Of a DNA stretch of 64,000 nucleotides, positions 14,774 to 43,995 are shown in pieces (position 1 is the stretch's first letter; the number at the start of each line of letters is the position of its first letter). The notes beneath the pieces were generated by a model. That model did no database searches. It had not been told where the DNA came from and saw only the letters and a list, made by a program, of their open reading frames with translations. Both the position numbers and the translations under genes were made by a program. This DNA is from Psychrosphaera sp. F3M07 (GTDB lineage Bacteria > Pseudomonadota > Gammaproteobacteria > Enterobacterales > Alteromonadaceae): positions 1 to 64,000 of the forward strand of contig NZ_JAHKPJ010000015.1 in NCBI RefSeq assembly GCF_018860345.1. The letters run 5' to 3'.

Positions 14774-15136
14774 ATGAAAATTATAAGAGTAATACTAGGC
14801 GCATTGATTTTATTTTTAGATTGGATAACTACACCTAGAGGTGTAAAACGAGAGGCTAAGGTTCAAACTGAAATAGATAAAAAAACACAGAAATTAGCCC
14901 TGTATCAATACAAAGCGTGTCCTTTCTGTGTAAAAGTACGCCGTAGTATGAAACGTAATTCGTTAAAAATTGCCACTCATGACGCAAAACGCAATGAGCA
15001 GAGTCGCCAAGAGTTAGTCAATGGTGGTGGTCAATTAAAAGTCCCTTGTTTACGTATCGAAAAAGACTCAGGTGAGGTGCAATGGATGTACGAATCATCT
15101 GATATTATCAATTACTTAGAGCAAGAGTTCTGTTAA
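14774..15136 (+). CDS. membrane-anchored glutaredoxin-like protein
   Basis: A 120-aa protein with an N-terminal hydrophobic anchor (residues about 4-18) and a glutaredoxin/GST-N thioredoxin fold from residue 40. The redox motif is CPFC (residues 53-56), the cis-Pro segment is KVPCL and the C-terminal YESSDIINYLE matches the glutathione-binding end. It probably reduces disulfides or glutathione adducts at the inner membrane face. AGAGAG precedes the ATG. A well-placed TATAAT lies upstream at 14711-14716. Confidence 0.82.
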   Translation: MKIIRVILGALILFLDWITTPRGVKREAKVQTEIDKKTQKLALYQYKACPFCVKVRRSMKRNSLKIATHDAKRNEQSRQELVNGGGQLKVPCLRIEKDSGEVQWMYESSDIINYLEQEFC

Positions 15137-15167
15137 TAAAGATAATCAACGCAGTGAAAGTAGGTTT

Positions 15168-15201
15168 ATTAGCAAATTTCACAAATGTGTTATTTGCTAA
15201 T
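15168..15201 (+). terminator. hairpin after the glutaredoxin-like gene
   Basis: ATTAGCAAAT (15168-15177) pairs exactly with ATTTGCTAAT (15192-15201), followed by a T-rich but mixed tract. The stem is AT-rich, so termination may be weak. Confidence 0.45.
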
Positions 15202-15363
15202 TATTTAATTTCCAGTTTAAGTAACTAATAATTAACTAGAAATCAATATCGCTACTTTACATATCAAGGTTTCAATCTACACTTACGTTGAGCTAATTTA
15301 TAAAACGCTAATTTATTAATTGCTAATGTTAAATGTTCGATGATTTTGTAGTAGGAGCACCTT

Positions 15364-17235
15364 ATTAACATCCAAAAAAATATAGACAGCCATCAATATT
15401 TCCAAACCAAACGTCTTATTCAAATATTTTGGGCTGTTGAGCTGACGTTAGCTATTATCTTTTTTCATCGGATATTTTTACAACAATATCTCCAGTGTGG
15501 ATTAGTATTAATCGCGGGTCTTTTATTGATACCGGTTTACCATCTAGCCAAAAACAATAAAATTACACAAGCCGCGACAATTCTACTTTATGTTCTCACC
15601 ATATTAGTAACCCAATTTATGTGGCGACATGGCGGCTTGTATGACGAAAGTGTACTTGCCTATCCCTGTATATTGATCATGGCTGCTATGGTAGGGGATA
15701 AGTCATTATTTATTAACTTACTCGTAGTTATCTCTGCGTCTATTGGCTTAAACGGTCTAGTCAATAGCCAATCATGGTATATAAATTCCAGTTCGACAAT
15801 TTCGTTAGGCAATACATTTTTAGTTTTAATTACCATATATCTCATCAGCTATATCATATGGATAATGGTTGAGGACTTCCGCGAGTTAGTGAATAAACTT
15901 AACATCGAAAATTCCAATGTTATTAAATCAAAACAAGAAATAGAAAACTTATTACATCATGACTTATTAACGGGTTTACCCAATAAAATAATGGCAAAAG
16001 AGTTATTTGCTAAAGCAAGATCTAACACGGACAGCAGTAAGAATATTTATTTAATGTTTTTAGATTTAGATAATTTTAAAGTAATTAATGATGCACTTGG
16101 ACATCAAGCTGGCGATGCATTATTAATTGAGTTATCACAGCGTATGTTTCAATTGCTGCAAACTCGGGATTCAGTTTGTCGTTACATTGGAGATGAATTT
16201 GTAGTGATTGTTGAGTCCACTGAATCTGAAGAATATGTGGCGAGTTTAGCGCAACAGATCATCGAACAGATAAGTAAGCCATTTTATTATCTGAGTAATG
16301 AATTTATATGCGGCTGTTCAATAGGTATTAGTACCACAGCTACGGATGGTGAAGATTTTGATACCTTATTAAAACATGCCGACGCGGCTATGTATTATTC
16401 CAAATCTCAAGGTGGCAATAGTTTCCATTTTTATAATAAAGAAATGAACATTCATGGTCATGAGTATATAAGTGTTGTTTCTGATCTGCGCAAGGCCATC
16501 GTACAAGACGAACTGGTTTTAACTTACCAACCTAAAATTGATATTCAAAACAATAAAATTATTGGTGCTGAAGCGTTAATCCGCTGGCAACATCCTGAAA
16601 AAGGGCTAATTTATCCAGACGAATTTATTCCCCAAGCTGAAAAATCCGGTTTAATTATTGAGATTGGGGATTGGGTGCTAAGTGCTGCGTGTAGACAATG
16701 TAAGCAGTGGCTTAACAGTGGGTATTCTGATTTTACAATGGCGGTAAACGTATCGTCAAAACAGTTCGCTAAAAAAGACTTTTATACAAAAGTAGAAAAA
16801 ACGTTAAGCGAATATCAGTTAAATGCTTCATCTTTAGAGTTAGAAATGACGGAGTCTCTGTTAATTGATAATAGTGATGAATTAAAATCGACACTTAAAA
16901 ACTTACATGATCTTGGTGTGCACCTTTCAATTGATGATTTTGGTACTGGTTATTCTAATTTAGGTTATTTAAAAGCGTTTGATATTGAATACTTAAAAAT
17001 AGACCGATCGTTTATCAGTGATTTAGTCACCAATCCAAAAAACAAAACCTTAGTAAAGGCGATAGTTCAAATGTCTCATGGCTTGGAGATTCAAAATATA
17101 GCTGAAGGAGTTGAAGATCAAAAAACCGTGCGTGTTTTACAACAATTACAGTGTGAAATAGGGCAAGGATATTATTGGTCTAAGCCTATATTTGCGGAAC
17201 AATTTGAAGTGTTTGCTGCGGAATATAACAAGTAA
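15364..17235 (+). CDS. membrane GGDEF/EAL protein, probable c-di-GMP phosphodiesterase, likely AUU start
   Basis: About 623 aa. The N-terminal half is a membrane sensor with several helices (to about residue 170), then a GGDEF domain whose signature reads YIGDEF (first Gly replaced, residues about 275-279), then an EAL domain with the intact EAL at 403-405 and DDFGTGYSNL loop. It is therefore more likely a c-di-GMP hydrolase than a synthase. The frame is open and membrane-like from a TAG at 15352. There is no ATG/GTG/TTG before a TTG at 15526, which would delete two helices. AGGAG at 15353-15357 points to ATT at 15364. A strong terminator follows. Confidence 0.78.
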   Translation: MNIQKNIDSHQYFQTKRLIQIFWAVELTLAIIFFHRIFLQQYLQCGLVLIAGLLLIPVYHLAKNNKITQAATILLYVLTILVTQFMWRHGGLYDESVLAYPCILIMAAMVGDKSLFINLLVVISASIGLNGLVNSQSWYINSSSTISLGNTFLVLITIYLISYIIWIMVEDFRELVNKLNIENSNVIKSKQEIENLLHHDLLTGLPNKIMAKELFAKARSNTDSSKNIYLMFLDLDNFKVINDALGHQAGDALLIELSQRMFQLLQTRDSVCRYIGDEFVVIVESTESEEYVASLAQQIIEQISKPFYYLSNEFICGCSIGISTTATDGEDFDTLLKHADAAMYYSKSQGGNSFHFYNKEMNIHGHEYISVVSDLRKAIVQDELVLTYQPKIDIQNNKIIGAEALIRWQHPEKGLIYPDEFIPQAEKSGLIIEIGDWVLSAACRQCKQWLNSGYSDFTMAVNVSSKQFAKKDFYTKVEKTLSEYQLNASSLELEMTESLLIDNSDELKSTLKNLHDLGVHLSIDDFGTGYSNLGYLKAFDIEYLKIDRSFISDLVTNPKNKTLVKAIVQMSHGLEIQNIAEGVEDQKTVRVLQQLQCEIGQGYYWSKPIFAEQFEVFAAEYNK

Positions 17236-21096: not shown

Positions 21097-22212
21097 ATGA
21101 TGAGTAACATGAGTGATATTTTTGGTCAAATGGTTGCCAAGCAAGCGTCTGATTTATTTGTTACGGCAGGTTTGCCAGTGAGTGTTAAGTTAAATGGTGA
21201 ACTAGTGCCTTTAGTTGGTGACAAGTTATCAGCAGATGATGCTAAACAACTGGTATTGTCTTGCATGTCAGAAAAACAAAAAGCAGAATTTGAGCTAGAC
21301 CGTGAGTGTAATTTTGCGGTTGCAAATGAATCAGGACGTTTTCGTGTATCGGCTTTTTGGCAACGTGATAAAGTAGGTATGGTTGTCCGTCGAATAGTGA
21401 CAGAAATTCCAGATCCGGATGATTTGGGTTTACCACAAACGCTAAAAGACGTGATCATGACCAAACGTGGTTTAGTGTTATTTGTCGGTGGCACAGGAAC
21501 CGGTAAATCAACCAGCTTAGCTGCACTGTTAGGTTATCGTAATGAAAATTCAAAAGGTCATATATTAACGATTGAAGACCCAATTGAATTTGTCCATGAA
21601 CACAGAAATTGCATTGTTACCCAAAGAGAAGTGGGATTAGATACCCCATCGTTTGACTCGGCATTAAAAACCTCATTACGCCAAGCTCCAGATGTTATAT
21701 TAATTGGGGAAATACGCTCACAAGAAATAATGGAATATGCATTGTCTTTTGCTGAAACTGGCCATTTGTGTGTCGCTACATTACATGCAAATAATGCTAA
21801 TCAGGCCATTGATAGGATCATGCATTTAGTGCCAAAAGAACAACAAGATAAACTTAAATATGAATTAGCCCTTAACTTAAAAGCCATTGTTGCACAGCAA
21901 TTAATACCAACCGTTGATGGCAATGGGCGCGTAGCAGCAATTGAGATTTTATTATCCTCCCCTATGATAGCGGAGTTGATAAAAAGAGGTGATATTTCAG
22001 GAATTAAGGAAACCATGGCTAAGTCTAGAGAGTTAGGTATGCAAACCTTTGATTTGGCATTATATGATTTATATACCGCAGGCAAGATAAGTTATGACGA
22101 TGCGATACATCATGCTGATGCGCCAAATGATCTCAGATTAATGATTAAATTGGACTCTAAAGATAAAGCACCAAGTAGCTTGTTATCTGGAGTGACAGTT
22201 GATGGGTTGTAG
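21097..22212 (+). CDS. pilU: PilT/PilU family type IV pilus ATPase PilU
   Basis: A 371-aa paralogue of PilT that assists retraction under load. Walker A GGTGTGKST is at about residues 131-139. The Asp box TIEDPIEFVHEH, Walker B VILIGEIRS and His box ATLHANNANQAIDRI follow. The C-terminus lacks the AIRNLIRE motif and has LSSPMIAELIKRGDI instead, as expected for PilU. AAAGGATAA precedes the start. It ends the pilus operon; repeat DNA and the cassette array follow. Confidence 0.93.
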   Translation: MMSNMSDIFGQMVAKQASDLFVTAGLPVSVKLNGELVPLVGDKLSADDAKQLVLSCMSEKQKAEFELDRECNFAVANESGRFRVSAFWQRDKVGMVVRRIVTEIPDPDDLGLPQTLKDVIMTKRGLVLFVGGTGTGKSTSLAALLGYRNENSKGHILTIEDPIEFVHEHRNCIVTQREVGLDTPSFDSALKTSLRQAPDVILIGEIRSQEIMEYALSFAETGHLCVATLHANNANQAIDRIMHLVPKEQQDKLKYELALNLKAIVAQQLIPTVDGNGRVAAIEILLSSPMIAELIKRGDISGIKETMAKSRELGMQTFDLALYDLYTAGKISYDDAIHHADAPNDLRLMIKLDSKDKAPSSLLSGVTVDGL

Positions 22213-22310
22213 TTTTTGGTATTTTACTCAAAGCTCATGACTCGTGGCTACAGCCTTTTCCCCCTCGGCGGCCATCAATAATACATCCCTCTATTGATGG
22301 CATCCCTTCA

Positions 22311-22408
22311 TCCATGAAGTGGCAGGTTGTCAGTTCCCGACACAACCTAAGCGAGTACATCCATGAAGTGGCAGGTTGTCAGTTCCCGACACAACCTAAG
22401 CGAGTACA
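22311..22408. repeat. 49-bp tandem duplication
   Basis: Two identical 49-bp units (22311-22359 and 22360-22408) begin TCCATGAAGTGGCAGG and end AAGCGAGTACA. A third unit starts but breaks off after TCCATG. Each contains GGTTGTC...GACACAACC, an inverted repeat. Confidence 0.9.
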
Positions 22409-22652
22409 TCCATGTACTCGACAATATCTTTTTCATCAGACCCAAAGGCGTGCGGCTTTTTGTTTTTACTCAAAGCTCGTGACTCGACACTCGTGGCTAC
22501 AGCCGTTTCGGCCCTCGGCGAGTTACCTTTTTCAACAGCCAAAAAAGGTAGGCGGCTTTTTATATTTTCAAAGATTAAAAGACTATTTCACCTTCGGCGA
22601 CCATACCTTTTTCAACAGCCAAAAAGGTAGGCCAAAAGGCCGCCCGTCACCA

Positions 22653-22780
22653 AATATCTAATTGTATTGAATATTAACTTTTATCATCAAATACGGAAAA
22701 ACATTCGTCCCTGAATACTTTCCTCAATCGGGCATCCATGCCCTCTCGATTTGAGAAAAGTTATATTTAATACAGATATT
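22653..22780. repeat. MITE-like element, copy A
   Basis: The ends AATATCTAATTGTATTG and TTTAATACAGATATT are imperfect inverted repeats of about 35 bp, each continuing into an AACTTTT..TCAAAT motif. The middle holds CGGGCATCCATGCCC, a short palindrome. Almost the whole unit recurs in reverse orientation at 56946-57122. It carries no coding capacity. Confidence 0.75.
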
Positions 22781-22796
22781 TTAAAGTGGGACTTAT

Positions 22797-22830
22797 AAAG
22801 CAAAAGCAAAAGCAAAAGCAAAAGCAAAAA
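22797..22830. repeat. hexanucleotide CAAAAG repeat
   Basis: Four perfect CAAAAG units plus one variant (CAAAAA) form a short simple repeat in an AT-rich gap. It could vary in length by slippage. Confidence 0.85.
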
Positions 22831-23113
22831 CGAGATTAACAGTCCGTATTTTAATTTTAATATTTGCGAAAACTGACGCGATGCTTTTTTATTAATAACC
22901 CCTTCCTATTAAATAAATACTCAAGTCTCACTTTGTTTTTCAGTAACTAACTAAGTTATTAATTAAACAATGGAAAATAGCATTCATTTAGTTTTTAATA
23001 GGAAGTGAAAAAGTCGCGTTAAAGTCAGGCTCGTTTTGTTTTTGATTATTTAGCAATTTATGAAATAAATTTATTGAAAATAGCTAATAAAATCAATTGG
23101 TAATGTCTGGCAG

Positions 23114-23177
23114 TAACATGAATTAATAAAGAATTGAGCAATTACATATACGAAATGCTCGATAATAAGCGTTAGCA
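23114..23177 (+). repeat. short attC-like site at the left end of the cassette array
   Basis: TAACATG at 23114 and GCGTTAG ending at 23175 resemble the outer boxes of an attC site. GAGCA and TGCTC inside can pair. The right core GCGTTAGCA directly precedes the first cassette gene. At about 64 bp it is shorter than the other sites and the outer boxes pair poorly, so it might be a decayed attC. Confidence 0.45.
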
Positions 23178-23188
23178 GTACAGGAAAT

Positions 23189-23485
23189 ATGGCACTAGAT
23201 TTACACATACTGGAAAATGGCCAACCAAAGGAATGGATTTACGCAATTGATTCTGAAAAATGGTCATTATTTAATGAAGCGTTCGAGATATTTAAAGCTA
23301 AAACAGGCTTAGTCATAGATCAATATTCCGATACCAAATTCTCATCAGGGCTTCAAAATTTAATAGATATACTTAACTCTGTTGCTCCACAGTACGGTAA
23401 AAGTGCGGCTCTATTTTCAGAGTTTATCTCTGTTTTGGAGTCAGCTGAAAGCAATGGTAAAAACGTAATTTTTGTCGGCGACTAA
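23189..23485 (+). CDS. cassette 1: hypothetical protein
   Basis: A 98-aa cytoplasmic protein (acidic to neutral, no membrane segment or signal peptide) starting MALDLHILENGQP. CAGGAAAT gives a usable ribosome site. It lies just after a GCGTTAG core and ends nine bases before the next attC, as cassette genes do. I recognise no functional domain. Similar small globular proteins are common in chromosomal integrons. Confidence 0.75.
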   Translation: MALDLHILENGQPKEWIYAIDSEKWSLFNEAFEIFKAKTGLVIDQYSDTKFSSGLQNLIDILNSVAPQYGKSAALFSEFISVLESAESNGKNVIFVGD

Positions 23486-23493
23486 TGTACTGC

Positions 23494-23590
23494 TAACAAG
23501 TTACTCAAAAGGACGCAAAACGCTTGGCTTGTGCTCCTTCGTCGCTAATTTTAGCCAAGCATTTATGCGCCCATTAGTAAGGCGTTATAT
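23494..23590 (+). repeat. attC site 1
   Basis: Left core TAACAAG (23494) and right core GCGTTATAT (to 23590). Inner arms GCTTGGCT and AGCCAAGC are complementary, as are GGACGC and GCGCCC approximately, giving the imperfect cruciform of an attC. Confidence 0.88.
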
Positions 23591-23832
23591 ACCGCAACTA
23601 ATTCCAGTAAAAATAGCTACGTACCAAGGCGTTAAATCCCCTATTCCTTTCGTTGCATTCTTTTGGTCTGGGTGTTGTTGCAAGTACGGCTTTTCAAAGC
23701 AAACAATTACGTAAGTTCAGTAATATCCACGTTCAGGTTTACGTTTGCGGTGGGTAAAGGTTGCTAGCTCTCTTAGCTTGCTAACTTCGGTAAAGGCTTG
23801 TAAATTAAGTTTAAAACCTTAGCCAGTTTATA
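23591..23832 (-). pseudogene. cassette 2: no intact gene; possible reverse-oriented gene remnant
   Basis: This cassette of about 240 bp has no credible forward gene; a forward 80-codon frame here begins inside cassette 1 and runs through attC1. On the minus strand two stretches in one frame look protein-like: one ends GYY at a TGA near 23721, and the other reads ...YVIVCFEKPYLQQHPDQ... and ends at a stop near 23587. No start codon is seen. It may be a decayed gene in reverse orientation or a non-coding cassette. Confidence 0.35.
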
Positions 23833-23934
23833 TAACAAGGCAATAAAGCATGGGACTGTTAAAGCTTGGCTCGGTTCCGCTTCGCTTCACATTATAGCCA
23901 AGCATTTATCAGCCTCTTATTAGGGGCGTTATAT
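23833..23934 (+). repeat. attC site 2
   Basis: Left core TAACAAG at 23833 and right core GGCGTTATAT ending 23934. The arms AAGCTTGGCT and AGCCAAGC pair, with an unpaired TCGGTTCCGCTTCGCTT loop. It has the same general class as attC 1 and 4. Confidence 0.88.
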
Positions 23935-23967
23935 TGCAAAGCAGTTTTGTGAAAGGAATCGAGTTAA

Positions 23968-24219
23968 GTGATCTATCTAGCCTATTTTTTTTGGTTCATT
24001 ATGCTTTCATTTGCCATTCCAAATATTTGGTCTGGTTTAGCTGCAATCAGTTTTTTAGCGTGTGTTGTAGCCGTAATTAATTACTCCATTAAAAGTTATA
24101 AAATCTACCGTAATGGTTACGACTCAATAATTGGTAAATGGTTGGTATATTCATATTCGCCTTTGGTCATCGTTTCTATGGGAGGAATTATGTTTTATTA
24201 TGGTGTAGTTGCAATATAA
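23968..24219 (+). CDS. cassette 3: small membrane protein
   Basis: An 83-aa protein with three hydrophobic segments (about residues 4-20, 22-40 and 61-82), predicted in the inner membrane. It starts at GTG 23968 with AAAGGA upstream at the right distance. Its stop TAA is also the first base triplet of attC 3. I recognise no family. Confidence 0.72.
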   Translation: MIYLAYFFWFIMLSFAIPNIWSGLAAISFLACVVAVINYSIKSYKIYRNGYDSIIGKWLVYSYSPLVIVSMGGIMFYYGVVAI

Positions 24220-24311
24220 CAAGCTAATAAATAAGGACAAAAAACAGTTGGCTGTTTTCGTTCCTCAACATTTTAGCCAACAATTTTTTGCCCATTATTA
24301 GGGCGTTATAT
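24217..24311 (+). repeat. attC site 3
   Basis: Left core TAACAAG at 24217, right core GCGTTATAT ending 24311. Arms CAGTTGGCTG and AGCCAAC pair. It differs at only one position up to the right core from attC 5 at 25855-25949. Confidence 0.92.
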
Positions 24312-24341
24312 ACCCTAAACCAACTACAGAGTTTTGTTTCA

Positions 24342-24617
24342 ATGCAAGGTGAATTAAAATATAAGAGTTACCTTAAGCAATTCTTTCTTAATTTGTTTTT
24401 TGGTCCATTAGGTCTGTTTTATTCTAGTAAACTACTCGGCATTGTATTTTCGATCACAATTATTCCAACAATAGGTGCGTTTGGATTTGGCCTTATAATT
24501 GGTTGGCCAATATCAATTCTAGTTGGAATAATGTCAGTTGCTGATTATAACCGTAATATACTTTCATATTCGCTAAGAAGAGAAAGAATAAAGTCGAAAT
24601 ACGCATCGGGTAAATAA
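24342..24617 (+). CDS. cassette 4: small membrane protein, TM2-like
   Basis: A 91-aa protein starting MQGELKYKSYLKQF with two hydrophobic helices separated by a short polar turn (FFLNLFFGPLGLFYSSKLLG... and IGWPISILVGIMSVADYN). The FFGPLGLFY segment resembles the TM2-domain pattern of small membrane proteins. The ATG at 24342 is chosen because the frame upstream of it lies in attC 3. The stop codon overlaps the left core of attC 4. The function is unknown. Confidence 0.7.
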   Translation: MQGELKYKSYLKQFFLNLFFGPLGLFYSSKLLGIVFSITIIPTIGAFGFGLIIGWPISILVGIMSVADYNRNILSYSLRRERIKSKYASGK

Positions 24618-24712
24618 CAAGTCAATTAAGTCGGACGCCTTACGCTTGGCTGGTGTTCGTTCCTCACAAAGTATAGCCAAGCATAATTCGGCCTCTTATT
24701 GAGGCGTTATGT
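24615..24712 (+). repeat. attC site 4
   Basis: Left core TAACAAG at 24615, right core GGCGTTATGT ending 24712. Arms GCTTGGCT and AGCCAAGC pair. The TCGGACGCC and GGCCTC parts near the cores are partly complementary. Confidence 0.9.
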
Positions 24713-24728
24713 TTTAAAGGATTATCCA

Positions 24729-25838
24729 TTGGCAAATCAAGCATACGAAAACCAAAAAGTTACACTTATTTATTCAAAAAAATCTATCGATAAGGCAGCT
24801 AGAAGTATTCGTCATGGTTGCGAAGGTGAAGTTCGAGATGATGCTATAAATAAAATTCAAAACTTTCGTGAATTACACATGTATCCGCTAATGTTAATCA
24901 AAAACCATCTAGCGAGAACTGCAAAAAAAATAAATAAGGATATTGTTATCGCAAGACGATTAAAGCGTCTACCTACAATAATTAATAAACTTGAGAGGCC
25001 AACACTTGATGGGACTCAAGGTAATGCTATTAAACTCACTAGGATGCAGGATATTGGAGGATGCAGAGCGATTGTAAAAAATTTAAGTGAACTTACTGCT
25101 CTTCAACTTAGACTTGAGAAAAGTAAATCAGTCCATAAAGTTATTCATAAATCTAATTATCTCACTCCAAAAGAAAGTGGTTATGGTGGAGTTCATTTAG
25201 TTTATAGTTGTTTTGATGAAGATGATACTGGGAATAATTGGAAAAAAACTAAGATAGAAGTTCAACTTAGGACTAAGTTGCAGCATGCTTGGGCTACTAG
25301 TCTTGAGATAATTGATACTTTAGAAAAAATCGAATTAAAAACAAGTATAACTGGGCATGAAAAGTGGAGGCATTTTTTTAAGGTTTCAGGAAGGCTTGTC
25401 GCTCATGATGAATCAGCTTGTATCTTAAATGATCAAGAACTAGTTGAAGCTAAAAAGGAGCTGAAAACTCTAGAGGCTGAATTAGAAGTCACAGGTAAGC
25501 TTGCTCATTTTTCTTTTGCTATAAAAGCAGCAACAAACTCTTCAAAAAAATTATCTTACAGTAAAAATATAGGTATGTGTTTAGTAATACTGAGAAAAGA
25601 CGAATTGTTTGACCCAAAGCATACAAGTATTAACGATCTAAAGTTTGAGACTAAACAGTTTAAAAATAGTGACACTAAAATTGCCTTGAGTGAGTTAAAT
25701 GAAAGTGAAAAAGATGAAGATATTTCACTATCAGTTCTGTTAGCAACAACAGATGCTAGAACATTGAAGAAAGCTTATCCAAACTACTTTGGTGACACAT
25801 TCGACTTCCGAAGCTTCATAAGAAAGCACATTGAGTAA
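24729..25838 (+). CDS. cassette 5: RelA/SpoT-domain alarmone synthetase-like protein
   Basis: A 369-aa protein with a RelA/SpoT (PF04607) nucleotidyltransferase domain at about residues 50-200. Family motifs are seen in order: RRLKRLPTIINKLER (about 76-90), RMQDIGGCRAIV with the Mg-binding Asp (105-116), GYGGVH (151-156), EVQLRT with the catalytic Glu (177-182) and QHAWATSLE (185-193). No HD hydrolase domain is present. Residues 215-369 form a polar, Lys/Glu-rich C-terminal part of unknown role. It likely transfers pyrophosphate from ATP to a nucleotide or RNA, as do small alarmone synthetases and toxSAS toxins. Start TTG 24729 has AAAGGA at 24716; upstream in-frame codons lie in attC 4. Confidence 0.82.
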   Translation: MANQAYENQKVTLIYSKKSIDKAARSIRHGCEGEVRDDAINKIQNFRELHMYPLMLIKNHLARTAKKINKDIVIARRLKRLPTIINKLERPTLDGTQGNAIKLTRMQDIGGCRAIVKNLSELTALQLRLEKSKSVHKVIHKSNYLTPKESGYGGVHLVYSCFDEDDTGNNWKKTKIEVQLRTKLQHAWATSLEIIDTLEKIELKTSITGHEKWRHFFKVSGRLVAHDESACILNDQELVEAKKELKTLEAELEVTGKLAHFSFAIKAATNSSKKLSYSKNIGMCLVILRKDELFDPKHTSINDLKFETKQFKNSDTKIALSELNESEKDEDISLSVLLATTDARTLKKAYPNYFGDTFDFRSFIRKHIE

Positions 25839-25854
25839 AGAGTTGCTTAAAACA

Positions 25855-25949
25855 TAACAAGCTAATTAATAAGGACAAAAAACAGTTGGCTGTTTTCGTT
25901 CCTCAACATTTTAGCCAACAATTTTTTGCCCATTATTAGGGCGTTATGC
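25855..25949 (+). repeat. attC site 5
   Basis: Left core TAACAAG at 25855, right core GCGTTATGC ending 25949. It is almost identical to attC 3 (one base differs in the left arm), pointing to a recent common origin of the two sites. Confidence 0.92.
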
Positions 25950-26359
25950 GTAAAGGACGATCGTTGAAGCATTTAGTTATCGCTACAGCCAAAACACTTT
26001 TAGTCGTTTTTGTTGTCTGCTTTGTATTAACCTTTGTTGATTCTTATGGCGGTGACTTTGATCACTGGCTAATAACCTTATCCATTTCCGTGGTTACAAC
26101 CTTTGTTGTAGGTATAACTATGCTTGTGTGGGGGATTCCAACACATATTTATATGCGCTGTAAAAATCTAAAATCATGGACATATTACTTACTATCAGGA
26201 TTTGTCCCTGGTATTGTTTTTGTTTATGTTTTTAAGCCGTTTGGCCATGAAGCGCCATATGATTTATTTTTACAAGCAATGCAATGTGGTGCAATTGGTA
26301 GTTTTATAGCTGTTGTGTTTTGGCTATCGTATTATAAATTACGCATAACAAGTCGTTAA
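25946..26359 (+). CDS. cassette 6: membrane protein
   Basis: A 137-aa protein with four hydrophobic segments (about residues 12-30, 42-64, 80-98 and 112-130), predicted inner-membrane. The ATG at 25946 lies in the attC 5 right core. A TTG at 25964, six bases after AAAGGA, fits the style of neighbouring cassettes and may be the real start. The stop lies inside attC 6. I recognise no family. Confidence 0.7.
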   Translation: MRKGRSLKHLVIATAKTLLVVFVVCFVLTFVDSYGGDFDHWLITLSISVVTTFVVGITMLVWGIPTHIYMRCKNLKSWTYYLLSGFVPGIVFVYVFKPFGHEAPYDLFLQAMQCGAIGSFIAVVFWLSYYKLRITSR

Positions 26360-26443
26360 AGCAGGACAAATAACAGTTGGCTTTTGCTCCTGCGTCGCTT
26401 ATTTTAGCCAACATATTATTTGCCTCTTAACGAAGCGTTAGGT
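26346..26443 (+). repeat. attC site 6
   Basis: Left core TAACAAG at 26346, right core GCGTTAGGT ending 26443. Arms CAGTTGGCT and AGCCAAC pair. Confidence 0.9.
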
Positions 26444-26458
26444 GGAAAGAGACTCCGA

Positions 26459-26860
26459 ATGAAACGTGTACTATTTATTGTTCTTTTTTTATTGCCGCTC
26501 AAGTCCTACGCGGTAAATGATTTTGAATGCACTGTGAAAGAGGTGTATAAACTGAACGATGCAGGCTTACTTACTCCAGGTAAGGGGTTTGTTACACCTG
26601 AAGTAGGAAGCAAGTTTGTAGTAAACCGACAGTCTGGGAAAATTACGGGCAAAAAAATTACAAATACTATGTCTGGCTATATGCCCACAGTCTATAGTCA
26701 TCAACCTTCGGAAAATTCATATTCAGCTTTAACGATTTATAAACCTAATTATACAATCGACCTCCTTCAAATTCAGGAGCATGTCGAGCAAAAATTAAAG
26801 CCTTTTATTTATAAGGGCGCTTTCGGCGAGGTCGTAACTGGTCTATGCACAATTTACTAA
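26459..26860 (+). CDS. cassette 7: secreted hypothetical protein
   Basis: A 133-aa protein with a Sec signal peptide (MKRVLFIVLFLLPLKSYA, cleavage before VNDFEC) and a mature part starting FECTVKEVYKLNDAG. One Cys pair may form a disulfide. GGAAAGAG precedes the ATG at 26459. The frame is open further upstream only through attC 6. Similar secreted proteins of unknown function are frequent integron cargo. No domain assigned. Confidence 0.75.
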   Translation: MKRVLFIVLFLLPLKSYAVNDFECTVKEVYKLNDAGLLTPGKGFVTPEVGSKFVVNRQSGKITGKKITNTMSGYMPTVYSHQPSENSYSALTIYKPNYTIDLLQIQEHVEQKLKPFIYKGAFGEVVTGLCTIY

Positions 26861-26870
26861 CTCAATCACC

Positions 26871-26982
26871 TAACAAGGTTGTCATAGAGACATTTTTTGC
26901 TTCGCTCCGTTTTGGGGGGGATTCGCCACTTTACCCCAAAACTACACTACACAAAAAAATGCCCCATACAACGGCGTTATAT
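26871..26982 (+). repeat. attC site 7 (divergent, long)
   Basis: Left core TAACAAGGTTGT at 26871, right core ACAACGGCGTTATAT ending 26982. Arms GTTGT/ACAAC, CATTTTTTG/CAAAAAAATG and GTTTTGGGG/CCCCAAAAC pair. At 112 bp, and without the GTTGGCT arm of its neighbours, it belongs to a different attC subtype. Confidence 0.85.
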
Positions 26983-26997
26983 TTACAAAGGAAGTCA

Positions 26998-27279
26998 ATG
27001 CTAGTTCTTCAACTCAAGGCTAAATATCAAGGAAATGATGGCGCATATAAACAAGACGAGTCATATCCTGTTCTCGCTATTACAAAAAGTGACGATATTG
27101 ATGTTGCCACTGAATGTGCTAGTGATTTAATGTCAGAAAATGGTTGGGGAGATTTTGATTTCTTGCGATATGGAACAATAAAGGGTTCAAACGATGCACC
27201 TAAATCTTTTGGTGAGCCTAAAGAGTGGCAACAGACACTTGATGAGAATGGTGCAATTTATATCGTCTATACAACGTAA
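26998..27279 (+). CDS. cassette 8: hypothetical protein
   Basis: A 93-aa soluble protein starting MLVLQLKAKYQGND, with acidic stretches (SDDIDVATECASDLM) and no membrane segment. AAAGGAAGTCA before the ATG at 26998 fixes the start; a longer frame from 26845 runs through attC 7 and the end of cassette 7. The function is unknown. Confidence 0.72.
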   Translation: MLVLQLKAKYQGNDGAYKQDESYPVLAITKSDDIDVATECASDLMSENGWGDFDFLRYGTIKGSNDAPKSFGEPKEWQQTLDENGAIYIVYTT

Positions 27280-27281
27280 AC

Positions 27282-27378
27282 ATACAAGCTGTTAAAGCGG
27301 GACAAATTACAGTTGGCTGGTTCCGCTTCGATTCACATTTTAGCCAACTACAATTTGCCCCTTAACAGGGCGTTATAA
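27282..27378 (+). repeat. attC site 8
   Basis: Left core degenerate (TACAAG in place of TAACAAG) at about 27282, right core GCGTTATAA ending 27378. Arms CAGTTGGCTG and TAGCCAAC pair. Confidence 0.85.
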
Positions 27379-27402
27379 ACCAAATAGAGGCTCTGCAAAT
27401 AA

Positions 27403-27732
27403 ATGGAATTATCTGAAGAACGTAAAAGAGAAGTAAGAGCCAATTTAAGTGGTTCAACTGTTGAAGAAGAGCGTAACCTTTTGAAGTTAGGTGCTTACGA
27501 AGATACGCCAGAAATAAAAGAGATTGTGGAAAGCTGGGTTCTCACACACGAAAAAATGTCAGACATCGAAAGGAAAGACGAAACGTTGGCACTGTTAAGA
27601 GAAACCAGTAAATTAGCACAAGAAGCAAATGATATTTCGTCAAAAGCTAACACCAGATCGTTGATAGCCCTGACCGTTTCAACTGTTATGTTGCTTATTT
27701 CTGCTCTTACGTATTTAAAGAGTCTGAGTTAA
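27403..27732 (+). CDS. cassette 9: coiled-coil protein with C-terminal membrane helix
   Basis: A 109-aa protein. Residues 1-85 are highly charged and helical (EERKREVRANL, HEKMSDIERKDETLALLRETSKLAQEAN), likely coiled coil. Residues 86-106 are one hydrophobic helix (SLIALTVSTVMLLISALTYL), so it should be tail-anchored in the inner membrane. AGAGG precedes the ATG. The function is unknown; the layout resembles accessory proteins that sense or multimerise at the membrane. Confidence 0.74.
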   Translation: MELSEERKREVRANLSGSTVEEERNLLKLGAYEDTPEIKEIVESWVLTHEKMSDIERKDETLALLRETSKLAQEANDISSKANTRSLIALTVSTVMLLISALTYLKSLS

Positions 27733-27739
27733 TGGTTTA

Positions 27740-27849
27740 TAACAAGTTGCTCAAGTTCGTTCGTAAACTCACTGGGACAATTAACAGTTGGTTTGGCGCT
27801 TCGCGCAAGTATAGCCAACAGCCAATTGCCCCTTAGCAAAGCGTTATGT
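27740..27849 (+). repeat. attC site 9
   Basis: Left core TAACAAG at 27740, right core GCGTTATGT ending 27849. Arms CAGTTGGTTTGGC and TAGCCAAC pair imperfectly. An extra TTCGTTCG..AAACTCAC stretch lengthens the left side to give 110 bp. Confidence 0.86.
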
Positions 27850-28157
27850 TGCATATGGATATTGTCGAAAAAATCAAAAAAATTAACTTCGGAGTAGTTT
27901 TAGTAGCATTAGCAATAATGTTCATTTTACTACTCGGGGATGTGGAATATTATGGGCTTTTAAGCGTATATGTTTTTATGGCTTTATGGAGCTTAGATAA
28001 AGTGTTCTTGTGGTCCTTTAATTTTGATTTTGGTATTGCGAATCAGCTGGAAATAAAAAAAGATGCACCTAAAATAGTAAGATTTATTGGTTTACTATTT
28101 GTATTGTTCGTTTTGTACATTTCGCTAGCTGGGGTTTTCGAGCTAGTTGCAACATAA
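27846..28157 (+). CDS. cassette 10: small membrane protein
   Basis: A 103-aa protein with three hydrophobic segments (about residues 15-30, 37-55 and 79-101). ATG at 27846 lies in the attC 9 right core; a second in-frame ATG at 27855 may be the start, with no clear ribosome site for either. The stop TAA overlaps the left core of attC 10. I recognise no family. Confidence 0.66.
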   Translation: MLHMDIVEKIKKINFGVVLVALAIMFILLLGDVEYYGLLSVYVFMALWSLDKVFLWSFNFDFGIANQLEIKKDAPKIVRFIGLLFVLFVLYISLAGVFELVAT

Positions 28158-28255
28158 CAAGAAATTCAACAAGGACAAAAAACAGTTGGCTTTTTGTTCA
28201 CTACGTTCACTTATTTTAGCTAAGCATTTATGCGCCCATTAGTAAGGCGTTAGGT
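28155..28255 (+). repeat. attC site 10 (hybrid arms)
   Basis: Left core TAACAAG at 28155, right core GGCGTTAGGT ending 28255. The left arm (GGACAAAAAACAGTTGGCT) is that of attC 3 and 5. The right arm (AAGCATTTATGCGCCCATTAG) is that of attC 1, so the two arms pair less well than in other sites. Confidence 0.86.
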
Positions 28256-28265
28256 AACCCAAAGC

Positions 28266-28520
28266 ATGGATAGCTCTCGAATAAATGGTTATATGAAAAA
28301 ATGCAGTATCTACTTTGCTGTAATTTATTTGATCACGTTTTTAACTTCTAGTTTATTCATACAAGCTTTTGACTACATTCATGGTCTAATCATCGGCGCT
28401 AAAATCGTCGATGGTTGGTCACTTGGAATTATGGTTTGGTTTGGGTTAATCTTTGTTATTCCAATTGTTTATTGTTTAATAATTGGGTTTTTACTATTTA
28501 AAAAGCATGCACAAACATAG
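28266..28520 (+). CDS. cassette 11: small membrane protein
   Basis: An 84-aa protein with two long hydrophobic segments (about residues 14-34 and 52-78), starting at ATG 28266; an in-frame ATG at 28293 is possible. It lies just after the attC 10 core and is the last cassette-like gene. No clear attC follows; only a CCTAACA near 28538 resembles a left core. The function is unknown. Confidence 0.65.
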   Translation: MDSSRINGYMKKCSIYFAVIYLITFLTSSLFIQAFDYIHGLIIGAKIVDGWSLGIMVWFGLIFVIPIVYCLIIGFLLFKKHAQT

Positions 28521-28585
28521 CTTATGGGTACAGGTTACCTAACACATATGAACCTTCTGCCGTCAAATAAGCAATAACATCTTTT

Positions 28586-28614
28586 TTAGCTGCCGTTAGG
28601 CAGCTAATTTTTAT
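28586..28614 (+). terminator. rho-independent terminator at the right end of the array
   Basis: TTAGCTGCC (28586-28594) and GGCAGCTAA (28599-28607) pair perfectly around GTTA, followed by TTTTTAT. The GTTAGGC in the loop resembles an attC right core, but the inner arms needed for an attC are not found. Confidence 0.8.
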
Positions 28615-29070
28615 CGTCAATCAGCAAAAACATCTACTTCATTCTGTCACGGTCGCTGTTAATAAATTGTTTACAGCAAACACATATTGAGGCTCTCTTA
28701 ATGTGATCTCATCACTGCCTGAATTCGTTAATCCATTGGTTGTTCAGGGGCACTACGACTAAATGGATTTAGGAGGTAGAGCGACGCAGGAAGCCAAAGC
28801 CGAGACATTTATCGGTTAACCTTAATCTGGCACTACTCAAGCAAATGACTACTAATTAATAACTAGGTTCAGTTAGTTTCAGGCTCAGCTAAGGTGTAAA
28901 CAATTTTGCTCATTGTTAATGCGCACCAGCGGGATGTCTAATCAAGACCAACGAGCTTATACAGCGACTATATTTACCTGCAATAAGTTACTTAATGAAA
29001 ATAGACCACAAATAACACGCGATAGTTCTTTTTTATCTAGTTAGACGTTCAGCTCATCCCACTGTGCGAC
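28615..29070. other. decayed intergenic flank of the array and IS remnant
   Basis: No gene is visible. Bases 28765-28805 match, in reverse orientation, a stretch at 57024-57068 (shared core GGAGGTAGAGCGA.GCAGGA.GCC). The rest lies downstream of the IS110-type transposase fragment and could include the former right end of that element. Confidence 0.45.
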
Positions 29071-29298
29071 TTAAGGTTTTAAAAATCGTTCATCATCAAA
29101 CACCGTTTTATTCTTTAACATGAAGTAAACACTGCGGCCGAGTTTATGCGCCAACGCAGATAAGGCTTTGGCTTTACTCATTCGTTTTTGTAGTTTGTTG
29201 AGATAACGTCGAGCTTTGTCATTCCCTCGTAAATACAACACCGCCGCTTCACTGAATGCCCACTTTAAATGACCGTTCCCTGAAAATAACAAGGCCAT
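29071..29298 (-). pseudogene. IS110-family transposase, C-terminal fragment
   Basis: 75 codons match the C-terminal end of IS110/IS1111 transposases: GNGHLKWAFSEAAVLYLRG, then KALSALAHKLGRSVYFMLK and FDDERFL, the conserved IS116/IS110/IS902 C-terminal domain. The N-terminal DEDD catalytic part is missing. Upstream of 29298 the frame is lost, so this is a truncated relic, not an active element. Confidence 0.82.
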
Positions 29299-29384
29299 CC
29301 ACTAAAGCTTGGTGGTTTCAATATTTGATTTAAAGTTGCAGCTTATATAAACGCGAGTTATACACAATAAACAAGGAGGTTGGT

Positions 29385-29675
29385 GTGAAGGTAATGGTTT
29401 TGGATTTTTTACTATTCTTCTTTTAAGTGGATGTATGGCTAATCCGCGTGACAGTCTTTTGTATGAGCTTTTGTATGAGCTTTTGCATGAGCCAAAACTG
29501 AAAAATTGTATTTATGCTACTCCTGCAGATAAAAGTGATTGTGAAGGCGTGTCAATAACCGTAAGAGTGTGAAGTTTGGGGAATATGAAGAAGAACGCGA
29601 GGTTATTCGTAGCACTGCTATTCCCAAAAAACGGTTGATGAATTTTTAAAGAAAAAACTTTCTAAAAAGTCGTAA
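29385..29675 (+). pseudogene. lipoprotein gene broken by frameshifts
   Basis: A strong AAGGAGGT precedes GTG 29385 / ATG 29394. The frame starts VKVMVLDFL and runs out at a TAA. A shift gives TILLLSGCMANPRDS, a perfect lipobox, then a 12-bp in-frame repeat (LLYE LLYE LLHE) and CEGVSITVRV before a stop. A second shift gives KFGEYEEEREVIRSTAIP and a third KTVDEFLKKKLSKKS with a final stop. Joined, these give a lipoprotein of about 95 residues. Three shifts mark it as a decayed gene. Confidence 0.72.
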
Positions 29676-29717
29676 ACATAAACATCACTTTTATTTTTTA
29701 GATGTATTCAAACAACA

Positions 29718-29749
29718 AAGCCAGTTAGCGTAAGTTAATTGGCTTTTTC
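29718..29749 (+). terminator. hairpin with T-tract
   Basis: AAGCCAGTTA (29718-29727) pairs with TAATTGGCTT (29736-29745) with one mismatch, followed by TTTC. It may be the old terminator of the lipoprotein pseudogene. Confidence 0.6.
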
Positions 29750-29885
29750 ATTCTTATTAAACTTGTAATGGGTTTAAACTTATATTTAGCCTTTCTTTAG
29801 TAATAATTAAATGTCACTCGTTTTGCTACGAGCAGCAAGCATTGCTATTATGTTGCACTTCATTAAAAATTAAGTATTGAATTTT

Positions 29886-30560
29886 ATGCCAACAACGTTA
29901 CTTGAACGAATTACTATTGAACCAAAATCTCCAGCTACTTCCTGTGTAATATGGTTACATGGACTAGGAGATTCAGGCGCTGGCTTTGCTCCTATTGTGC
30001 CAGTATTAGCTTTACCGGAAAATCATGGGATTCGTTTTGTTTTCCCTCACGCCCCAGAGCAAGCGGTTACGATTAATCAAGGTTATGTAATGCGTTCTTG
30101 GTATGACATTAAAAGTATGGATTTACATAATCGTGCTGATCTAGAAGGTGTGTTAGCGTCTGAGAAACTGGTCAAAGGCTTAATTCAAGAGCAAATTGAC
30201 TCAGGTATACCTGCAGAAAAGATTATTTTAGCTGGTTTTAGTCAAGGTGGGGTTTTGAGTTTATTTACTGCTTTACGTTTTGAGCATAGCTTGGCAGGTA
30301 TTTTAGCATTGTCGTGTTATTTACCGACTGCGGATAAACTACCAGAGCAATGTCATAGTGCTAACGCTGATACTCCTATTTTACAAAATCATGGGGAGCG
30401 TGACGGTGTTGTTCCTATAAGTGCAGGTAAAATTGCAAACGATTTACTTAATGCTGCTAAATATAATGTGACTTGGAAAAGCTACCCAATGGAACATTCT
30501 GTATTACCAGAGCAACTCGCGGATATTTCAGTGTGGTTACAAGCTAGGTTGCTTGCTTAA
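29886..30560 (+). CDS. carboxylesterase / phospholipase family alpha/beta hydrolase
   Basis: A 224-aa PF02230 esterase (EstB / acyl-protein thioesterase fold). The oxyanion motif is IWLHGLGDSG, the nucleophile elbow GFSQGG, the acid Asp in GERDGVVP and the His in PMEHSV. It should hydrolyse short-chain esters in the cytoplasm. ATG 29886 gives the usual short N-terminus; a TTG three codons earlier is less likely. It stands alone after the decayed flank of the cassette array. Confidence 0.9.
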   Translation: MPTTLLERITIEPKSPATSCVIWLHGLGDSGAGFAPIVPVLALPENHGIRFVFPHAPEQAVTINQGYVMRSWYDIKSMDLHNRADLEGVLASEKLVKGLIQEQIDSGIPAEKIILAGFSQGGVLSLFTALRFEHSLAGILALSCYLPTADKLPEQCHSANADTPILQNHGERDGVVPISAGKIANDLLNAAKYNVTWKSYPMEHSVLPEQLADISVWLQARLLA

Positions 30561-30642
30561 GATTTGTATAAACGGACAGCAATATTTGTTTATCTAAAAT
30601 GAATATACCGTTTGGCTGAAATCTTATCTGCACCAATCATTA

Positions 30643-30686
30643 CCTAAAGCCCTAAAGCCCTAAAGCCCTAAAGCCCTAAAGCCCTA
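30643..30686. repeat. 8-bp TAAAGCCC tandem repeat overlapping a stop codon
   Basis: Five perfect TAAAGCCC units (30645-30684) plus partial ends. The right end includes the stop codon of the leftward membrane gene (CTA at 30684-30686), so the repeat abuts coding sequence. Confidence 0.9.
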
Positions 30687-31061
30687 TGCCTTTTTGCTTC
30701 TAGGTGCACCTAGTAGAATAAATATGTGGCAAATACAGACAGATAAAAATGCGCTCATACCTAGTGCGCCGCCGTAACCATCAAATACTGGAACAAGGTA
30801 TTCAAATAGGATTGAGAAAATAATGGATGCGCTGCTTATGGTATAAACACCAAAGCGGTGCGGGGCGCTCATGCCAATAAAGGTTCCGCCAAAAAACACG
30901 ATTGCGTATAGGTCAGGGGTCATGTCTACGGCATATAATATTAAATACGCCACTATGGATAGCAAAGCGGAGGCACTGATACCGTCAAAACGATGGTGTC
31001 TTGCTAGATAAAATGTTGAAAACGCGCCCAGTAGCGCGAGGATTGGGTATTCAATACTCAA
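30684..31061 (-). CDS. small membrane protein, second of a paralogous pair
   Basis: A 125-aa inner-membrane protein with about four hydrophobic segments. It shares with the upstream gene product a GGTFIGMSA segment near residue 58 and FDGYGGALGMSAFLSV near 95, so the two are paralogues. The C-terminus is basic (RSKKA). Its start overlaps the upstream stop (ATGA), implying coupled translation and perhaps a heteromeric complex. I recognise no family. Confidence 0.72.
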   Translation of the reverse strand: MSIEYPILALLGAFSTFYLARHHRFDGISASALLSIVAYLILYAVDMTPDLYAIVFFGGTFIGMSAPHRFGVYTISSASIIFSILFEYLVPVFDGYGGALGMSAFLSVCICHIFILLGAPRSKKA

Positions 31062-43895: not shown

Positions 43896-43995
43896 AGATA
43901 TAATGAAAATTATTACTTGAATACGTCGGACGCAATAATTAAACTAGGCGCATTCAAAATTTGAAATTTATCTTTTTATTGATAAGGAAAATAAG

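Follow-up and report, generated by a model that had tools for sequence, protein, structure and literature searches.

A probable AUU start codon, conserved in three Psychrosphaera species, for a membrane GGDEF-EAL protein

Described AUU-start genes and the GGDEF-EAL locus

AUU is known as the start codon of only a few bacterial genes. One of them is infC, which encodes IF3 and regulates itself through this factor; its ATT follows a well-placed Shine-Dalgarno (SD) sequence and is conserved between species. The AUU start of E. coli pcnB was described as limiting expression (Binns and Masters 2002). In S. aureus, cvfC1 (AUU) and ccpN (AUA), which encode a 61-residue protein and a transcriptional repressor, respectively, have non-canonical starts with an extended SD that were mapped by profiling and reporters, and the start and SD of cvfC1 were reported to be conserved among staphylococci (PMC13009471). 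Y. pestis RcsD-Hpt was described as having a functional AUU start with an SD, internal to a frameshifted gene, and its pathway affects biofilm (PMC10191623). Streptomyces sigR, a sigma factor gene, starts at GTC, and its control by IF3 was demonstrated (PMC5472188). Gene callers that assume ATG, GTG or TTG were noted in the same report to miss non-canonical starts (PMC5472188).

We analysed a 64,000-nucleotide stretch of the genome of Psychrosphaera sp. F3M07 (the window), in which a GGDEF-EAL gene very likely joins this small class, judging from its sequence and that of its relatives (Table 1). Three features by which AUU-start genes are recognised were found here: a conserved coding region without a usable ATG, GTG or TTG, an SD at normal spacing from the ATT, and an SD and ATT unchanged in three of three species. 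The locus thus resembles infC in having a well-placed SD before a conserved ATT, but its product is a membrane GGDEF-EAL protein and not a factor that regulates its own gene, and its SD duplex is weaker (-6.5 versus -9.3 kcal/mol for infC). It shares the AUU start with E. coli pcnB, from which it differs in function; in all five Psychrosphaera genomes read, pcnB has a GTG ahead of the conserved N-terminus. With cvfC1 and ccpN it has in common a non-canonical start with an SD, although those genes differ in their extended SD, their products and their Gram-positive host. Y. pestis RcsD-Hpt likewise pairs AUU with an SD, but it is an internal start and yields no GGDEF/EAL protein. The likeness to sigR is that of a non-canonical start on a regulatory gene; sigR differs in start codon, product and demonstrated control, and it provides the precedent for an IF3 mechanism. 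No c-di-GMP enzyme with an AUU start was found in the literature searched, which covered few subscription journals. A conserved AUU on a c-di-GMP gene would offer a testable start-codon regulatory element outside the translation genes.

Table 1. Features of the GGDEF-EAL locus, with positions counted in the window
Feature	Position	Strand	Remarks
Possible sigma-70-type promoter, TTTACA-16 nt-TACACT	15256..15283	+	ATCTACACTTA part conserved in all three species
In-frame stop TAG closing the frame upstream	15352..15354	+	Same place in both orthologs
Shine-Dalgarno TAGGAG	15352..15357	+	Identical in three species; six bases ahead of ATT; computed duplex -6.5 kcal/mol
Probable ATT start codon	15364..15366	+	ATTAACAT identical in three species
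Whole gene, 623 codons plus stop	15364..17235	+	Six-helix membrane domain (predicted), GGDEF, EAL
N-terminal membrane domain (predicted)	15364..15936	+	Predicted helices 3-38, 42-63, 67-88, 96-110, 113-136, 148-190
First canonical codon TTG, residue 55	15526..15528	+	TTA in both orthologs; not likely the start
GGDEF domain (PF00990), residues 198-352	15955..16419	+	Variant motif IGDEF at 16186-16200
EAL domain (PF00563), residues 374-608	16483..17187	+	EALIRW and DDFGTG motifs intact

Both C-terminal domains were recognised by Pfam, with 251.7 bits for PF00563 (cut-off 31.3) and 145.9 bits for PF00990 (cut-off 23.8). The N-terminal 190 residues gave no Pfam match at E 0.001, hence no known MASE-type domain. 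A PDB fold search with the membrane domain also returned no match at E 0.001, a result that carries little weight since the structure model, based on an alignment of 3 sequences, had a mean pLDDT of 69. The GGDEF motif, which reads IGDEF here, is TGDEF in the orthologs from genomes G003 and G001 (Psychrosphaera saromensis and an uncultured Psychrosphaera) and AGDEF in the three next relatives. Given the variant IGDEF/TGDEF, cyclase activity may be altered or lost; together with the intact EAL motifs, this would make phosphodiesterase the more likely net activity.

Start region and its conservation

The frame of the GGDEF-EAL gene is open from 15355, directly after the in-frame TAG that precedes TTG 15526 and overlaps the SD. 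It runs for 57 codons ahead of this TTG, or 54 counted from ATT 15364, and none of the 57 codons is ATG, GTG or TTG. The first-pass annotation of this DNA had claimed an open frame of 54 codons up to the first TTG, devoid of canonical starts, and an AGGAG six bases before ATT 15364. Each of these claims was borne out by the sequence, in which AGGAG (15353-15357) and ATT (15364-15366) are separated by the six bases CACCTT. A canonical codon was present within the first 20 codons of 29 out of 30 window frames (stop-to-stop frames of at least 200 codons that were matched by the fetched G003 and G001 sequence), and the first one in the GGDEF-EAL frame is codon 58. The scan of window frames flagged many rows, many of which were short, lay on the strand opposite a longer conserved frame, or had a few conserved leader codons ahead of a normal start, as at 43948 upstream of acpP, which has its own ATG.

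We then considered the SD itself. Among the 8398 stop triplets on both strands of the window, taken in all contexts, 5 have an in-frame ATT in the next 12 codons with AGGAG or GGAGG 5-8 nt before it. For duplex energies, we used an anti-SD tail that we take to have the E. coli form. The SD reaches -6.5 kcal/mol, and 56 window ORFs have a median of -4.35. This median is rough since the ORFs were picked mechanically (one is a truncated form of the GGDEF-EAL gene itself) and each was represented by its best start within the first 25 codons; 23% of these 56 ORFs reach -6.5. The SD of the AUU gene is good, not exceptional.

An ortholog was present in 2 of the 7 other genus genomes, namely, G003 and G001, with about 71% identity over the whole protein and 62% over the N-terminal 191 residues in each case, and the other 5 genomes had none at such identity. 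A search with the N-terminal 191 residues matched 6 of the 8 genus genomes at E <= 0.001 and left 2 without a match; matches were strong in 3 of the 8 (own genome, G003 and G001), and the three further ones were at 22-35%. Among the genus loci, L036 (G004:C1:1907399-1907608) is a short 35% match with an internal stop, which may represent an N-terminal domain copy that has decayed. In both G003 and G001, we observed TAGGAG, six bases and ATTAACAT (ATT AAC AT), after which the next codons have diverged; 2 of the 6 spacer bases are kept, and the SD duplex is -6.8 in both. Neither ortholog has a canonical start before codon 50. Indeed, the first canonical in-frame codons, at residue 55 (TTG) here, 82 (ATG) in G003 and 50 (ATG) in G001, do not correspond to one another. 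G003 is close to G001 (48 of 54 codons identical), and conservation thus amounts to two independent lineages. Moreover, residues 1-190 contain 13 conserved Ile positions, and at 3 of these, counting the start, every one of the three species has ATT, so that an unchanged ATT says little by itself and it is its place after a conserved SD that counts.

Codons 1-54 show the pattern of a sequence that evolves as coding DNA. Differences from G003 number 22, 10 and 29 at codon positions 1, 2 and 3, and dN is 0.35 (G003) and 0.37 (G001) against dS of 3.5 (G003, near saturation) and 2.3 (G001). In each of the three species, both other frames of 15364-15525 are interrupted by stops. Alignments to the best homologs from other genera begin at residues 2-15. 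The earlier annotation had placed two hydrophobic helices before the TTG; in the predicted structure, this holds for the whole of helix 1 and for over half of helix 2. Taken together, the coding nature of residues 1-54, the homolog alignment and the predicted helices place the start between the TAG and roughly residue 12, a stretch in which the comparison identifies ATT 15364 as the only near-cognate codon with a normally spaced SD that is unchanged in three species. We therefore hold it to be highly probable that the gene starts at AUU 15364, where the TAGGAG six bases upstream would direct initiation, and that it makes a 623-residue inner-membrane GGDEF-EAL protein. The AUU start proposed in the first-pass annotation is well supported by the three-species comparison and by the exclusion of conserved alternatives; we infer from sequence both that the AUU is used in the cell and how strong it is. 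A caller limited to ATG, GTG and TTG would set the start 54 codons late here and elsewhere in each relative, and comparison of close relatives can reveal AUU starts.

Evolution of the start and possible control by IF3

In a further step, relatives outside the genus were compared. The family search gave matches in 126 of 395 family genomes, the best 30 of which were taken as loci; with L034-L036 from the genus search this made 33 loci, two of which (L036 and L057) were without a usable alignment. The 31 loci read comprised the 3 ATT orthologs and 28 others, all 28 of which have an ATG, GTG or TTG in reach, indicating that its lack is peculiar to the ATT clade. In a tree of 25 homologs among those loci, the ATT clade (100/100) stood beside a trio formed by G262, G068 and G107 (86/67), the six together being supported at 100/100, and G019 came next (97/94). 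TTG was the first in-frame start in all three members of the trio, and G019 has an ATG. Two of the trio, G068 and G107, have their TTG 9 nt past an in-frame TAG, the same distance as the ATT here. The TTG and ATT sites can be equated only approximately, given small indels close to the N-terminus. With TTG in the trio and ATT in the clade, a weak start seems to be common to this six-member group. The start regions of seven rows were compared from an ungapped print; the DNA alignment was misaligned for distant rows. The best SD duplexes of the canonical-start relatives were -3.8 in G068, -3.9 in G262, -4.0 in G019 and -6.2 in G107, the last at 3 nt from the start. Stronger SDs have been described in general terms as compensating for weak starts (PMC5622118), and the stronger SD of the ATT clade would be in line with such compensation in these few sequences. 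That the AUU and its ribosome-binding site were kept in two related species suggests that a weak start is useful to them.

We also read the start of infC within the genus. The start region GGAGGATTTTGCCATT, with an ATT after GGAGG, was present in 5 of 5 Psychrosphaera genomes read (L068, G000:C26 near 220715, and L066, L067, L069 and L070). A TTG (4 genomes) or GTG (1 genome) is found five codons before this ATT, where it overlaps the SD and has no SD of its own, and the ATT is thus the likely start of infC in this genus, by analogy with known infC genes. The overlapping TTG/GTG could mislead gene callers.

In both E. coli and Streptomyces, repression of non-canonical starts by IF3 has been reported (PMC5472188). 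In S. aureus, such starts were described as supporting, in poor medium, expression at about 10% of the AUG level, and the AUU of cvfC1 as unaffected by the medium (PMC13009471). An AUU start would most likely hold synthesis of the GGDEF-EAL enzyme low, and output would rise as free IF3 falls relative to ribosomes, since IF3 rejects non-canonical starts. Synthesis of the protein is probably low and IF3-sensitive. An IF3 control that links c-di-GMP turnover to the translation state, as proposed in the first-pass annotation, is plausible in view of the IF3 effect in E. coli and Streptomyces and of the likely ATT start of infC in this genus. A weak start would be explained equally well by a need for constant low expression. 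On that reading, towards which we lean slightly, the AUU would be real and would do no more than hold expression at a steady low level, with neither IF3 nor the translation state regulating it. The TTG of the nearest relatives, another weak start, and the S. aureus results fit this reading; the action of IF3 in E. coli and Streptomyces speaks against it, in that some sensitivity of a non-canonical start would be expected. A more far-reaching proposal is that in Psychrosphaera c-di-GMP turnover is coupled to how the translation apparatus stands, the membrane GGDEF-EAL protein being gated by IF3 alongside infC; this appears doubtful. If it were true, a change in free IF3 or ribosomes would directly shift c-di-GMP, and the lineage would have exchanged a weak UUG for a weaker, IF3-sensitive AUU with the SD kept or strengthened.

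Competing starts and the upstream region

Initiation could occur at another near-cognate codon close to the ATT, such as ATC 15370, the position of which is an Ile codon in all three species. This codon is ATT in the orthologs, so that its third base is not conserved, and it lies 12 bases from AGGAG compared with 6 for ATT 15364; we regard such a start as quite improbable. A start at TTG 15526, with the upstream conservation due to another cause such as regulatory DNA, has in its favor that this is the first canonical in-frame codon, which (or a later one) a caller limited to ATG, GTG and TTG would pick. However, the TTG is replaced by TTA in both orthologs, whose first canonical codons are at residues 82 and 50, and residues 1-54 evolve as protein. 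Moreover, a protein begun here would lack the first helix and more than half of the second in the predicted membrane domain, and the region before the TTG is also present in homologs from other genera. The TTG was rejected as a nonconserved codon, and we judge a start there to be very improbable.

The third possibility was an out-of-frame ATG with programmed frameshifting or, alternatively, translational coupling to an upstream ORF. G003 and G001 indeed have an out-of-frame ATG between SD and ATT, and the window has a mini-ORF, ATG ATT TTG TAG, at 15340. But the ATG is missing from the window, on which ground frameshifting was rejected. Stops interrupt the alternative frames in each of the three species, and the mini-ORF is absent from both orthologs. 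The upstream neighbour, a glutaredoxin gene, has its stop 227 bp before the ATT here (15136-15364) compared with about 6.0 kb in G003 (G003:C6:2280621-2286615) and 11.5 kb in G001 (G001:C12:94190-105706), showing that the spot upstream of the GGDEF-EAL gene varies. Since the start region is conserved despite this distant neighbour in the relatives, coupling to the glutaredoxin gene is unlikely and was rejected; frameshifting and coupling together strike us as highly improbable. Downstream, the genes that follow, DUF4426 among them, are the same in all three species; we take the others to be yggT, proC and pilT.

Transcription of the gene probably begins at a promoter of its own and yields a leader of some 70-75 nt. 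The -35 part of the possible promoter is kept in G003 but not in G001, and a promoter scan found 1 such site versus 1.9 in shuffles, so that conservation is the main support for it. An RNA element in the leader was rejected: at E <= 1, Rfam gave for the leader a single match, RAGATH-13, on the other strand and with 18.2 bits against a gathering score of 80, and the leader folded no better than shuffles (z of +1.03 in the window and -0.30 in G003). Finally, a sequencing error, or a gene decaying after loss of its ATG, which one genome alone could not exclude, is barely credible and, as to error, was rejected, with the same ATT in the same context and an intact frame in three separate assemblies.

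Two other observations were made in the window. The 16 codons before the acpP ATG (43948-43995) are conserved together with the gene in the two relatives G003 and G001, which suggests a constrained leader. The fetched parts of G003 and G001 match little of the region 22200-31000, which is possibly mobile or inserted; an exception is a 228-codon frame (29874-30557) with 99% identity to a G003 frame.
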